A stretch of 64,000 nt of DNA from Flavisolibacter ginsenosidimutans (lineage in GTDB: Bacteria; Bacteroidota; Bacteroidia; Chitinophagales; Chitinophagaceae): positions 1,922,001-1,986,000 of the forward strand of contig NZ_CP042433.1 of NCBI RefSeq assembly GCF_007970805.1, read 5' to 3'. Positions 21,981 through 27,255 of this stretch are shown here, piece by piece. Both the position numbers and the translations under genes were made by a program. A model generated the notes under the pieces. It did not search any database and was not told the origin of the DNA. It saw nothing but the letters and a program-made list of their open reading frames with translations. Numbering within the stretch: the first letter of the stretch is position 1; the number at the start of each line of letters is the position of its first letter.

Positions 21981-22652
21981 TCAGGCTTGCTCTACAATGC
22001 CAGCCTTTACGGCGTACATAATCAGGCCCGCTAATGATTTTGCGCCGGTTTTGGTTTTGAGCTTGTCGCGAATGGCTTCTACGGTACGCGGACTAAGGTC
22101 AACCGCCGCGGCAATTTCACGGGTACTTTTTTCTTCGCACATCAGTTTTAAAATCGTCACTTCTTTGTCGTTCAGTGCTACTTCGGGAACTTCCTGTTCT
22201 ACCGGACGCTTCATGCGCAAACCGTTAAGCAGGGCTTTATTGGTAAGATCGTTAAAGTAAAATTCTTGTTCGTAACAGGTTTTAATGGCTTGGTAAATCA
22301 TCTCCGAATCCGAGTCCTTGGTCAGATAGGAATTGGCGCCAATCTCCATCATGCGGGTAATGACCGAATGGTCGTTGTGCATGGAAAGCATGATGACTTT
22401 GACGTCGGGGTGAAGCCGTTTTATTTCAGGAAGTGTTGTTAAACCATCCATGATGGGCATTTGAATATCGAGCAGGACTACATCGGGCTGAATGTGCTTG
22501 AGCAGGTTCAGTAGTTGCATTCCGTTTTCGGCTTCGGCAACCATTTGAACGTCTTTGCGACTTGAGAGAGAAGTTTTAACACCGGCCCTGAAAAGAGCAT
22601 GATCGTCGGCAATGGCAACTCTGATAACGTGTGGTGTGTCGTTATTTTTCAT
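21981..22652 (-). CDS. NarL/FixJ-type response regulator (first of three)
   Basis: 223 residues. The receiver domain has the acidic pair (ADDH) and phosphoacceptor D62 (VVLLDIQMP), then a LuxR-type helix-turn-helix: LNDKEVTILKLMCEEKSTREIAAAVDLSPRTVEAIRDKL is the expected shape, with the EIA and PRTVE elements. It should bind DNA when phosphorylated by a HisKA_3 kinase. No kinase lies on its strand; the nearest is at 25726-26571. The sequence resembles the regulators at 23707-24366 and 26605-27255, so the three are paralogues. Confidence 0.92.
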   Translation of the reverse strand: MKNNDTPHVIRVAIADDHALFRAGVKTSLSSRKDVQMVAEAENGMQLLNLLKHIQPDVVLLDIQMPIMDGLTTLPEIKRLHPDVKVIMLSMHNDHSVITRMMEIGANSYLTKDSDSEMIYQAIKTCYEQEFYFNDLTNKALLNGLRMKRPVEQEVPEVALNDKEVTILKLMCEEKSTREIAAAVDLSPRTVEAIRDKLKTKTGAKSLAGLIMYAVKAGIVEQA

Positions 22653-22876
22653 AAGATGGTATAATTGGTAGTTGTACGCTTTTACAGCGCTGCAAGTTGC
22701 TAAAAACTTTCCGAATTAGAAATAGTATTTGTACCAATTTTTGACTGTAAGATTTACGGGTGCGCCAGTTTCTCTTTTCTTTAGCACATTGCATCTGCAA
22801 GGCGCAGTACAACCAAAAACATACGAAAGCATTTTTCCTGCGGATTTTAAAAAAGGAAGAAAATTTTGCAACCAGC

Positions 22877-23706: not shown

Positions 23707-24366
23707 TCACTCCAGTATGCGGTTGCGCATGGCATACATTACAAGGCCGGCAATGGTTTTGGCGCCCACCTTCTGCTTCATGTTCTGGCGAATGGTTTCA
23801 ATTGTGCGGGGGCTGAGGTAAACGTCTTTTGAAATTTCATCGGTGGTTTTGTCCTCAGCAATGCACTTTAAAATGCGCAATTCTTTTTCGGAAAATTTTA
23901 CCGGAATGTTTTGGTAGGTGCGGCCATTTTTTTTACCGGTTTGGAGTTTCAAGAGAACGGCCTTGTTCACCAAGTCGTTGAAATAAAAGTCATCGCTCAT
24001 GCAGGTAACGATAGCCTGGTAAATTTCGTCGGGGTCGGAGGTTTTGGTAAGATAGGCATTGGCACCCATCTCCATCAACTTGGTAATCATCTCCTGGTCA
24101 TCATACATGGTAAGTACGATAATCTTAACGCCTTCAAATTCTTTGCGGATAAGGCCAATAGCATTGATGCCATCCAATTCAGGCATGCGCAGGTCCATCA
24201 GAAGCACGTCGGGCTGCTTCATCTTTATTTTGTGCATGAGGTCCTTGCCGTCCTCCGCTTCCCATAAAAATTTCAGGTGATCGCGGCTGCTTAACGCCAT
24301 TTTAATGCCGTCGCGAAAGATTTTGTGATCGTCGGCAATGGCCACTTTTATGAGTTGGGCATTCAT
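23707..24366 (-). CDS. NarL/FixJ-type response regulator (second of three)
   Basis: 219 residues. The receiver carries ADDH and phosphoacceptor D58 (VLLMDLRMP), and the output domain has a LuxR helix-turn-helix (FSEKELRILKCIAEDK, DEISKDVYLSPRTIETIR). It is divergent from the signalling block at 24898-27255 across a 530-bp spacer, so it could regulate, or share, that promoter region. A TTG-N20-TTATTTTG promoter-like sequence lies upstream. No cognate kinase is adjacent on its strand. Confidence 0.92.
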   Translation of the reverse strand: MNAQLIKVAIADDHKIFRDGIKMALSSRDHLKFLWEAEDGKDLMHKIKMKQPDVLLMDLRMPELDGINAIGLIRKEFEGVKIIVLTMYDDQEMITKLMEMGANAYLTKTSDPDEIYQAIVTCMSDDFYFNDLVNKAVLLKLQTGKKNGRTYQNIPVKFSEKELRILKCIAEDKTTDEISKDVYLSPRTIETIRQNMKQKVGAKTIAGLVMYAMRNRILE

Positions 24367-24434: not shown

Positions 24435-24845
24435 TAAATCCGTAGATTATTTTAAGCGCTTCAACGAAAAACTGCCCAAAGATTTTCGCTTTTGCAATTC
24501 GTAATTATACGATGGCCTTTGAACCCCGAAAATTTAAAAAAGAAGTATGCAGAAAAAAATTGTTTTGAAGGCAAGTGTTAACCCCTATCTTCGTGATCTG
24601 ACAAAAAACAAAACCGCTCTTTTCCGTTTGGTTTAAACTCCTGCAAACGGTCGTAATTTCTTCCAAGGTGGCCTATTTTTTTCGTTTTTATGCAACCGCT
24701 ACCCACTAAAAGCACCTCGTAAAATTACGATTGAACACACGAAATTTTACCCTATTTTGGCCCGTAAGCACCGCAGTATGTTTTACGAAACACTTGTAAA
24801 CACTGCATTATGTAAATATTTTGCGATGCCGCTGCTTTTACCCGT
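24435..24845. other. Long AT-rich spacer upstream of the peptide/kinase block
   Basis: About 410 bp without a supported gene. It contains a CCGTTTG...CAAACGG hairpin (24623-24650) and a GTAAAATT/AATTTTAC inverted repeat (24719-24750). Two tiny open frames (18 codons at 24512 and 29 codons at 24547, plus strand) lack any support. The length is unusual for this compact region and fits a regulated divergent promoter area. Confidence 0.4.
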
Positions 24846-24877
24846 GTTGGAAAAAAAATTTACCCTCCTCATATTTG
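24846..24877 (+). promoter_or_regulatory. Putative promoter of the peptide/7-TM/kinase block
   Basis: GTTG (24846-24849) is followed after 20 bases by CATATTTG (24870-24877), one mismatch from TAnnTTTG. Predicted transcription would begin about 10-15 bases before the ATG of the candidate peptide gene at 24898. Confidence 0.5.
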
Positions 24878-24897
24878 TTGCATAAAAACTTACTGAT

Positions 24898-24975
24898 ATG
24901 GTACAAACTAAGAAAGTATTCCGTGCATTTCCTCCAGACGGTGATTTAATCGCTGAACTGTTTGGTCAGGACTAA
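24898..24975 (+). CDS. Candidate 25-residue peptide gene
   Basis: ATG at 24898, TAA ending at 24975. The peptide has a basic start (TKKVFR), a central RAFPPDGDLIAELFG and an acidic end QD. It lies 21 bases after a promoter-like element and 45 bases before a 7-TM protein, a sensor kinase and a response regulator on the same strand. No signal peptide or double-glycine leader is visible. It could be a signalling peptide, a leader peptide or a chance frame. I do not recognise it from any family. Evidence is position, promoter and plausible composition only. Confidence 0.4.
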   Translation: MVQTKKVFRAFPPDGDLIAELFGQD

Positions 24976-25020
24976 GAGAATTATTTATCTCATTTGTTTT
25001 TCTAAGAAGGTTTTCTATTT

Positions 25021-25716
25021 TTGGCAAAAACCAATATCATAGAAAACCTTTTTTCATACTTGGCAATCTACTCTGCCTTTCTTCCCATCTTGTTTTTTGT
25101 TTTAAACTGGAAAAAATGCCGGGAATTAAGACCGCTATGGGTCATCGTTCTTTATGCTTTTTTCGTTGACTTTTTGATTAGCTACGCCGTTGATTTCGTT
25201 CCGCACAAACCTCTGAAAATATCCTTGTATGCATGCTTTACTTTTTTCGAATACTTAGCATTTGCATATTTCATATTTCTTCAAGTTAAACGAAAGGCAT
25301 TCAAAAAATTTATGCTCTTTGCCAGTGCGGTTTTTCTCGTCTTTATTATCAGTTATTACCTTACCGTAAAGTTTAGAAACATTGATTCTATACCCATTGG
25401 CTTTGAAACCATTCTCATACTGATTTTTTCCTTTTATTATTTGTACGAGGAAATGAACGATTCTTCTACGCTGTTTATTTACAGCAAGTACACGTTTTGG
25501 GTGATAATCGGCATCGTGCTTTACCTGGCCGGCAGCTTTTTTATTTACATCTTCGCGGGAAGTTTTTTAACCAAAACAGAAATCAGAGAGTATTGGTTCA
25601 TCACCAATATTTTTACCATAATTAAGAACATCTTTTTCTGCATCGGCATCCTTATTCATACCAAACCATCAAAAAACAAGCTCAATTACCATCTTGATTT
25701 AAGCAGCTTAAACTAA
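25021..25716 (+). CDS. Seven-TM membrane protein, unknown function
   Basis: 231 residues. The start is TTG at 25021: a stop codon lies in frame at 25003 and no earlier ATG exists; AAGAAGG (25004-25010) is a fair ribosome-binding site ten bases upstream. About seven hydrophobic helices cover nearly the whole chain (YLAIYSAFLPILFFVL, VIVLYAFFVDFLISYA, IISYYLTVKF, IGFETILILIFSFYYLY, FWVIIGIVLYLAG and others). No catalytic motif is seen. It is followed after nine bases by a sensor kinase gene, so it may be a sensory or ligand-binding partner of that kinase. Confidence 0.8.
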   Translation: MAKTNIIENLFSYLAIYSAFLPILFFVLNWKKCRELRPLWVIVLYAFFVDFLISYAVDFVPHKPLKISLYACFTFFEYLAFAYFIFLQVKRKAFKKFMLFASAVFLVFIISYYLTVKFRNIDSIPIGFETILILIFSFYYLYEEMNDSSTLFIYSKYTFWVIIGIVLYLAGSFFIYIFAGSFLTKTEIREYWFITNIFTIIKNIFFCIGILIHTKPSKNKLNYHLDLSSLN

Positions 25717-25725
25717 CCATCCCCC

Positions 25726-26571
25726 ATGTACCTCTTGCAAACAACGCCGTCCAGCAACATTTCGCTCGTGCTTTTCATTGGTACACTGGGCATGCTGGTG
25801 CTCACCATTGGCTTGATCCTGTTCATTATTTTTCATCAGCGCAAGGTGATCCGCTTTCAACTGCGCCTGCAGGAAATGGAAAAACGCCAGCAAAAGATTT
25901 TGCTCAATGCTTCTATTCGGCTGCAGGAAGAAGAACGCCAGCGCCTTGCCGCCGACCTGCACGATGATGCCGGTCCGCTTCTGGCCACTGCCCGTCTGTA
26001 CCTGAACGAAAACCTGGTGAACATGGACAAGGCCACGCAATTGCAATCCATATTTCAGGCCCGCCAGATTTTAGACGACACCATTCAACTGGTGCGCAAC
26101 ATCAGCCATAGCCTTATGCCGCCTACGCTGAAAAACTTCGGCCTTGAATCGGCTGTGAACGATACCTTCCAAAAAATCAGCGGTGCGGGCAGCATTAATG
26201 CCAGCAGCCGTTTTCACGATTACAAGGATCGCCTGAAACTGGAGAAAGAACTGATCATCTTTCGCATTGTGCAGGAGTTGCTGAACAACATTCTAAAACA
26301 CAGTCACGCCAGTTTTATCCATCTTACCCAAAATTTTCAGGCCGATACGTGCTTCATTCGTATTCACCACGATGGGAAAGGCCTCATACAAAGCGACTTT
26401 GAAAAACTGAACAAAAGCAAAAACGGCTTGGGCCTGAAAAACATTGCCAGCCGCCTGCGGGTAATGCACGGCAAGATTCATTTCGAGAAAGACGCCTCAC
26501 AGACTTACTACAAAGTAACCATCGAAGTGCCCAGGGAAGACGTACCCGAAGATTCGCTCTACAATGCTTAA
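25726..26571 (+). CDS. HisKA_3 sensor histidine kinase
   Basis: 281 residues. One N-terminal membrane helix (about 13-36) without a periplasmic domain, then a coiled coil, then the HisKA_3 dimerisation domain EEERQRLAADLHDDAG with phosphorylated H79, and a HATPase_c domain with an N box ELLNNILKHSHA and a G box GLGLKNIASRL. This is the NarX/DesK-like class. Lacking its own sensor domain, it probably receives input from the 7-TM protein encoded upstream. It is followed by its cognate-type response regulator 33 bp downstream. Confidence 0.92.
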   Translation: MYLLQTTPSSNISLVLFIGTLGMLVLTIGLILFIIFHQRKVIRFQLRLQEMEKRQQKILLNASIRLQEEERQRLAADLHDDAGPLLATARLYLNENLVNMDKATQLQSIFQARQILDDTIQLVRNISHSLMPPTLKNFGLESAVNDTFQKISGAGSINASSRFHDYKDRLKLEKELIIFRIVQELLNNILKHSHASFIHLTQNFQADTCFIRIHHDGKGLIQSDFEKLNKSKNGLGLKNIASRLRVMHGKIHFEKDASQTYYKVTIEVPREDVPEDSLYNA

Positions 26572-26604
26572 TTCCCTAACTTTAACACGTAGAAACAATT
26601 TCCT

Positions 26605-27255
26605 ATGGATGTGATTAAAGTGGCCATTGCCGATGACCATAAAATCTTTCGAAAAGGCGTGATTCTTTCTCTCAGGCCTTACAGCAACATCAAGTTTGTG
26701 CAGGAAGCGGAGAACGGCGAAGAACTCCTGGCCGGCTTGGCGGAATCCGCGCCGGACGTGATTTTGATGGACCTGCGCATGCCGCTAAAAGACGGAATTG
26801 AAACCACGAAAATTGTCAGCAAGCAGTATCCGAATATTTACGTGCTGGTGTTGAGCATGAACGACGACGAACGTTTTGTAAGTCACCTGATGGAGAACGG
26901 CGCCAACGGTTACCTGTTGAAAAATGCCGAGCCGCAGGAAATTCGGCGCGCCATTATGGACGTATGCGAAAAAGGCTATTACCTCAATAATTTCGTCAAT
27001 CGAATTTTGATTAAAAAGGCGCATACCAAACAAAAAGCACTGCCCTCGCTAAACAACGAAATTAGCATTAGCGACAAAGAAAAAGACGTACTTCAATACA
27101 TCTGCATGGAGTTTACGGCGCAGGAAATTGCGCAGAAAATGAACATCAGTCCGCGTACGGTAGAAGCCATCAAAGACCGCCTGATGGAACGTTTTGGCAG
27201 TAAGAACACTGCGGGACTTGTATTTTTTGCCGTGAAGAATAATCTGGTGGATTAG
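26605..27255 (+). CDS. NarL/FixJ-type response regulator (third of three)
   Basis: 216 residues. ADDH and D56 (VILMDLRMP) form the receiver site; the output domain has ISDKEKDVLQYICMEFTAQ and NISPRTVEAIKDRL. It is the last gene of the peptide/7-TM/kinase block and is the likely partner of that kinase. Its similarity to the two regulators on the opposite strand suggests that one kinase might address several regulators. A strong terminator lies 66 bp downstream. Confidence 0.93.
   Translation: MDVIKVAIADDHKIFRKGVILSLRPYSNIKFVQEAENGEELLAGLAESAPDVILMDLRMPLKDGIETTKIVSKQYPNIYVLVLSMNDDERFVSHLMENGANGYLLKNAEPQEIRRAIMDVCEKGYYLNNFVNRILIKKAHTKQKALPSLNNEISISDKEKDVLQYICMEFTAQEIAQKMNISPRTVEAIKDRLMERFGSKNTAGLVFFAVKNNLVD

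Follow-up and report, generated by a model that had tools for sequence, protein, structure and literature searches.

What does an open reading frame (ORF) for a peptide of only 25 residues, short enough to escape annotation easily, do when it stands directly in front of genes for a seven-transmembrane (7-TM) protein, a histidine kinase and a response regulator? The question is raised by a locus of Flavisolibacter ginsenosidimutans, which we examined within a 64,000-nucleotide stretch of contig NZ_CP042433.1 (positions 1,922,001 to 1,986,000, referred to as the window) of its single-contig, 5.08 Mb genome. The original prediction, made from the letters alone, had described four genes on one strand with gaps of 45, 9 and 33 bp and had likened them to a peptide-sensing two-component system; coordinates and gaps were verified, and the observation was borne out more strongly than had been thought. 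It had overlooked the operator-like sites and the hairpin, as well as the alternative partner of about 125 residues and the outlier status of the window peptide. Our best reading, held with moderate confidence, is that the peptide is a dedicated ligand, in or on the same cell, of an autoregulated loop of 7-TM protein, kinase and regulator.

Among 79 related loci, 49 carry an ORF of 15–29 residues at the peptide position, mostly with a basic start and a Trp-acid end, and 19 carry a protein of about 125 residues; six lack upstream sequence (L012, L046, L052, L065, L072 and L082) and five are of other kinds, namely four distant paralogues (L023, L025, L026 and L147) and L075. The record of L075 has a broken 7-TM frame, and by eye a peptide-like frame can be discerned in that locus. 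Relatives of the 7-TM protein were found in 22 of the 58 genomes searched, the source genome counted, including 15 of 17 further genomes of the genus (the two without one are 78% and 84% complete), and most of the close relatives are preceded by such ORFs, for example MVPTKTYRAMPPNFPPDDIFGWWDN, MKTKTLRSIPPPSGDTIGLDWWEVA and MTKKVFRAVPPIEWPTTPSWWEF. Among named genomes, 56 loci were detected, from Chitinophagaceae, several Flavisolibacter included, and from uncultured Bacteroidota, with many shorter peptides such as MKRAWEVDVNILWEE and MKKIVKRAWETDTITVWEE; 14 additional core loci fetched later comprise five of the short form and nine of the long form.

The 47 distinct peptides have a common design: Trp is present within the last six residues in 46 of them, the sole exception being the window peptide, an acidic residue within the last three in 45, Lys at position 2 in 36 and the Trp-Trp (WW) pair in 17. 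Their mean charge is +2.7 over the first 10 residues and −2.2 over the last eight, and the ends are more constant than the variable middle. When loci with 200 bp or more of upstream sequence were screened with a pattern picked after inspection of the data, 45 of the 58 unique ones showed a matching peptide ORF (3.2 in shuffles); two of these matches (L066 and L084) are incidental hits in long-protein loci, and the pattern passes over the window peptide for want of a Trp. A Pfam scan of the window peptide gave no match. The original prediction had staked itself on conservation of the peptide frame, and the frame is indeed kept across Chitinophagaceae, mostly in synteny, 5′ of the 7-TM orthologues.

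The protein that replaces the peptide in 19 of the 79 loci is 120–135 residues long; its conserved body closes with a GIVADR-like motif and is followed by a variable, often low-complexity tail (…TTTTTTTYDWWS, …PPPTTTTSWW, …DDAVEWSWY) that contains Trp in 18 cases, L066 being the exception. Its AlphaFold2 model is poor (predicted local distance difference test, pLDDT, 51.7), no signal sequence is evident in this Chitinophagaceae form, and scans of the partner proteins against Pfam and NCBIfam, in part against Pfam only, gave nothing above threshold. In the 7-TM tree, all 19 long-form rows fall within one clade of 21 members (support 99/99), which contains none of the 48 short-form rows; the two remaining members are a distant paralogue and L012, whose contig stops within what appears by eye to be a long-type tail. 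This tree excludes L077, L075, L052, L065, L082 and L072, its bootstrap is incompletely settled and some of its branches are long. The agreement between the long/short split and the tree ties the peptide strongly to the 7-TM protein: judged from these sequences the two are a pair that evolves together, and a single origin of the short form is probable.

The upstream regions of these genes have a second common feature. In the 350 bp 5′ of the peptide ATG, 44 short loci contain 86 GTA-N4-TAC sites, with at least one in each of the 44, compared with 3.7 ± 1.7 in shuffled sequences; spacer 4 alone is enriched, spacers of 0–3 and 5–11 being near background. The sites have preferred positions, with intervals often of about 22–23 or 45 bp (as at −227, −204, −182 and −159). 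GTA-N4-TAC is also present at similar positions in 19 of 19 long loci, most commonly near −204 and −159 from the ATG, which supports both the equivalence of the long and short genes and the peptide start as assigned. The promoter-like element that the original prediction had assigned to the peptide gene would be more aptly called an upstream region bearing these sites, of which the window has a single exact copy in the 350 bp 5′ of the peptide.

Searches for a regulon with such patterns revealed no target genes beyond the module. A double-site pattern occurs at seven places in 5 of 11 genomes, five of which lie in promoters of the module (one each in G006, G013 and G019, and an overlapping pair in G020) and two elsewhere in G004, against 17 places genome-wide for the reversed control, so that there is no excess and only the position of the sites is informative; the source genome of the window contains none. 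A stricter single-site pattern gave three matches in nine genomes, all three in module promoters (control 1). The natural binder of GTA-N4-TAC would be the NarL-type regulator of the module, but a divergent orphan regulator gene adjoins: a minus-strand relative (E ≤ 1e-20) lies at most 2.5 kb upstream in 37 of the 48 loci with enough sequence.

In the window there are two orphan NarL-type regulator genes on the minus strand (21981–22652 and 23707–24366), and further GTA-N4-TAC sites at 22668–22677, 22725–22734 and 24501–24510 stand directly 5′ of them; the whole window contains 12 sites, with 4.4 expected. Upstream of the operator-like sites and at a nearly constant distance, 20 of 49 short loci have a DnaA-box-like site, at positions of about −258 to −274 relative to the ATG; the loci with it stand outside Flavisolibacter (e.g., L073, L080 and L128), and in several of them it forms an inverted pair such as TTATCCACAGCTGTTGATAA. 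The window lacks it. A replication origin was considered and rejected, the DnaA-box-like sites being single or double and unclustered, with no sign change of the GC skew there in the window.

All 44 short loci tested have a long hairpin at the junction of the peptide and 7-TM genes, and in 42 of them a simple pattern detects a T run at the 3′ end of the hairpin. Its 3′ arm doubles as coding sequence for the first part of the 7-TM protein (IENL). What appears to be the 7-TM start codon (TTG, ATT or ATG, as read from the frames of the window and L003–L017) sits in the upper hairpin. One stem position occurs as four pair types (GC 23, CG 9, TG 8 and TA 4) with none broken, the other stem positions being mostly near-invariant, and the hairpin halves of the same locus pair at −21.2 kcal/mol versus −17.1 kcal/mol for halves swapped between loci. 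The window hairpin has a folding energy of −18.9 kcal/mol (z = −6.56); a simple terminator scan that requires a loop of 3–8 nucleotides does not list it. As far as its sequence allows one to judge, the hairpin looks like an intrinsic terminator that would set the ratio of ligand to receptor.

The 7-TM protein was modelled by AlphaFold2 as seven long helices (pLDDT 89.8), and the positively charged loops fit an N-terminus outside and a C-terminus inside. The window protein has no Pfam match at E ≤ 1, and 22 family members gave at that threshold only scattered weak matches to unrelated families; nothing was above threshold in Pfam or NCBIfam, and a PDB profile search returned only sub-threshold or unrelated entries. 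The proteins of the module may belong to a structural family that is missing from the fold lists. VIA alignments of the model to a designed G-protein-coupled receptor (GPCR)-like fold (Z = 14.9, root-mean-square deviation (rmsd) 3.5, 202 residues) and to LYCHOS (Z = 14.6, rmsd 4.4, 210 residues) are suggestive of a GPCR-like helix arrangement and no more, since such scores are near the chance level for unrelated helical bundles; the best Foldseek hit of the model was non-significant (E = 0.12). No AgrB model appears among the Pfam matches of the 22 members, and none of the invariant or near-invariant alignment columns holds Cys or His, which is evidence against an AgrB-like peptidase. With regard to microbial rhodopsins, which bear a retinal-binding Lys in helix 7, Lys at position 202 (K202) is near-invariant, with Arg in L013; those Pfam matches likewise include no rhodopsin model, and the PDB profile search lists archaerhodopsins with E values of 0.6 or worse only.

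The kinase had been described as having no sensor domain, and its orthologues agree with this: 62 of 65 have one hydrophobic segment and three have two.

In a draw of 98 Chitinophagaceae genomes, 35 had the core form of the module (E ≤ 1e-25); in a draw of 99 genomes across the class, six had any relative at all (E ≤ 1e-5), and two of these six are the source genome and another member of the family. Of 23 distant modules examined by eye, 22 could be scored (L145 is short of upstream sequence), and in each of the 22 an upstream partner ORF precedes the genes for 7-TM protein, kinase and regulator. Two Cys around Pro occur near the partner C-terminus in 18 of them (for example FDFSYPCPTTC, YDFTQPCPSMC and LDFAAPCPQNC), those without this tail being L026/L089, L108, L148 and L149. 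Lipoprotein-like starts were seen by eye in 6 of 14 distant partner proteins inspected, and the tails of these partners would therefore lie outside the cytoplasm; this suggests the outer face of the membrane as the side where the ligand acts, whereas the Chitinophagaceae forms with no evident signal suggest the opposite. In L114 and L118 (G019), two tandem 7-TM genes of this family follow a single partner protein, whose tail is CPVYC.

These observations can be assembled into the following model. The short peptide would be a real translated product and a dedicated ligand, agonist or inhibitor, of the adjacent 7-TM protein, as a reduced form of the partner of about 125 residues that corresponds to its Trp-bearing tail. 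The 7-TM protein, with its N-terminus out and C-terminus in, would relay its state to the one-helix kinase, which would phosphorylate the NarL-type regulator, and this in turn would bind GTA-N4-TAC sites, often about two helical turns apart, 5′ of the peptide gene. By binding there the loop would govern its own ligand, with feedback that might be positive or negative, and the hairpin, acting as an intrinsic terminator, would ensure that more peptide is made than receptor, kinase or regulator. The likeness to a peptide-sensing module is thus retained for the conserved frame and the strong tie between peptide and 7-TM protein, whereas a receptor role and sensing between cells, which the original prediction had also implied, stay conditional.

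Several points weigh against the peptide being such a ligand. The window peptide itself is without the Trp motif of its family: it keeps the conserved first half, MVxTKKxFRAxPP, and ends in ELFGQD. By eye, the window DNA TTTGGTCAGGA resembles TTTGGTGGGA of relatives in a different frame, so that its end is possibly frameshifted or newly evolved. The codon-position signal is modest, with 60, 60 and 76 differences at positions 1, 2 and 3 in seven ungapped pairs of equal length taken as nearest by 7-TM protein (L077, with a truncated 7-TM frame, excluded); the window shows no third-position excess when compared with L003 (17, 17 and 18 differences) or L009 (13, 18 and 14). The mean proportions of synonymous (pS = 0.70) and nonsynonymous (pN = 0.31) differences over 224 pairs are biased, the pairs having been picked by peptide identity. 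To these are added the near-chance fold scores, the lack of excess of the double-site pattern over its control, and the divergent orphan regulator, which could be the actual binder of the sites. Finally, no signal sequence, exporter or protease was recognised by eye.

In a neighbouring explanation, the peptide is an intercellular pheromone, released and sensed externally by the 7-TM receptor in dependence on cell density, so that the locus would serve quorum sensing in Bacteroidota. The gene order, the ligand excess implied by the hairpin and the operator-like sites 5′ of the ligand gene would all fit, as would the variable middle and more constant ends of the peptides, the 7-TM N-terminus on the outside and the extracytoplasmic tails expected for the six distant partners with lipoprotein-like starts. 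A route out of the cell is harder to discern, for besides the missing signal sequences in the peptides and in the Chitinophagaceae partner of about 125 residues, a double glycine is absent from the window peptide and occurs anywhere in only 4 of 47 distinct peptides, and neither exporter nor protease was recognised by eye in 14 conserved ORF clusters, on which no family scan was made. We regard a pheromone as rather unlikely. An equally doubtful extension is that Bacteroidota have an undescribed class of modules with a GPCR-like 7-TM receptor, a separate kinase and a gene-encoded ligand, the latter being a Cys-Pro-tailed lipoprotein or small protein in distant modules, a Trp-tailed protein of about 125 residues in part of Chitinophagaceae or, in the sister branch, a free peptide of 15–29 residues acting as an autoinduced quorum-sensing pheromone.

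The hairpin, which begins a median of 30 nt after the short ORF, also brings to mind a leader peptide whose own translation controls read-through, by attenuation at Trp codons or arrest at a Pro-Pro motif, and the WW pairs of 17 distinct peptides would suit the former. All 49 transcripts, however, retain the hairpin in their predicted structure, upstream sequence pairing with its 5′ arm is not in excess, and the loci of the sister clade have a whole protein of about 125 residues behind the same upstream sites; such a leader is very improbable. Its Trp-attenuation variant was rejected, as the window peptide has no Trp codon and no antiterminator signal was found in 49 loci. A basic start and a Trp-bearing end would equally become an antimicrobial peptide or bacteriocin, with the 7-TM protein as immunity or export factor and the kinase and regulator controlling production, and three-component regulation is common for bacteriocins. 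The neighbours common to 41–42 of 56 records are nevertheless what vertical inheritance would lead one to expect, maturation or export genes were not recognised by eye, and the protein of about 125 residues occupies the same position in the sister clade, so that we give this explanation hardly any credence. The reading that we prefer remains a dedicated ligand of the 7-TM protein within an autoregulated loop.

The features of the locus, together with two further modules of the same genome, are listed in Table 1. The common neighbours include a clustered CoA-transferase subunit gene near 41 of 56 loci and a coaBC-like gene near 38 (gene names assigned by eye), and, as most core loci have common neighbours, the core module has the look of a chromosomal locus passed on vertically. 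The operator-like site and the stretch immediately 5′ of the peptide gene are flanked by a perfect 13-bp inverted repeat (24684–24696 and 24877–24889; GTTTTTATGCAAC / GTTGCATAAAAAC), whose arms are 180 bp apart.

Table 1. Features of the peptide/7-TM/kinase/regulator locus (window coordinates) and two further modules of the same genome (locus coordinates).
Feature	Position	Strand	Remarks
Peptide gene, 25 residues	24898..24975	+	translates MVQTKKVFRAFPPDGDLIAELFGQD; shares the conserved first half of its family; no Trp motif at the C-terminus
Seven-helix (7-TM) membrane protein gene	25021..25716	+	TTG start; AlphaFold2, Pfam/NCBIfam scans
Histidine kinase gene	25726..26571	+	one N-terminal membrane helix; Pfam HisKA_3 and HATPase_c
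NarL/LuxR-type response regulator gene	26605..27255	+	Pfam Response_reg and GerE; candidate binder of GTA-N4-TAC
Operator-like site GTAAAATTAC (GTA-N4-TAC)	24719..24728	+	179 bp 5′ of the peptide ATG
Terminator-like hairpin, peptide/7-TM junction	25004..25053	+	T run at 3′ end; folding energy
Divergent orphan NarL-type response regulator gene	23707..24366	−	second candidate binder of the sites
Further module	L089:3273-6093		partner of 220 residues before the 7-TM gene
Further module	L090:5230-7600		partner of 77 residues, ending GCPVPPCTVEDTE, before the 7-TM gene

If the peptide is a ligand, the locus would provide a genetically tractable pair of peptide and 7-TM receptor in Bacteroidota, and, as each member of the family predicts its own ligand sequence, specificity and cross-talk would be testable with synthetic peptides. 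It would also be a natural case of a protein ligand reduced to no more than its tail, and an example of a seven-helix receptor in bacteria whose ligand is encoded by a gene. Within the available parts of the open-access literature, subscription-only papers and preprints lying outside this scope, we found no description of the module and none of a peptide signalling system of such a kind in Bacteroidota.

Among known systems, LiaFSR and VraTSR of Firmicutes combine an accessory membrane protein, a nearly sensorless HisKA_3 kinase and a NarL-type regulator in one autoregulated operon. The locus described here, from Bacteroidota, likewise has a HisKA_3 kinase with a minimal sensor and a NarL-type regulator; its accessory protein differs in being seven-helical and without a family (the absence of any Pfam match for the window protein extends to LiaF and VraT) and in being preceded by the gene for a peptide or a protein of about 125 residues. 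Double-glycine leaders, as in bacteriocin and inducer systems of that type, are not a feature of this peptide family. AgrBDCA and ComQXPA are similar in having four adjacent genes on the same strand, for a peptide, a polytopic membrane protein, a kinase and a regulator. Here, in a Gram-negative family, the membrane protein has no AgrB-type match, the regulator is of the NarL type, and the multi-helix membrane part has a gene of its own, while the kinase does not carry the polytopic sensor domain of agr-type and ComQXPA kinases (a census of ComQXPA quorum sensing is given, in its available part, in PMC4008528). In LytS-type 7-TM kinases such as BtsS (PMC10653868, available part), a seven-helix receptor part also feeds a histidine kinase; there the helices lie within the kinase and the regulator is of the LytTR type, whereas here receptor part and kinase are encoded by separate genes and accompanied by a peptide partner.

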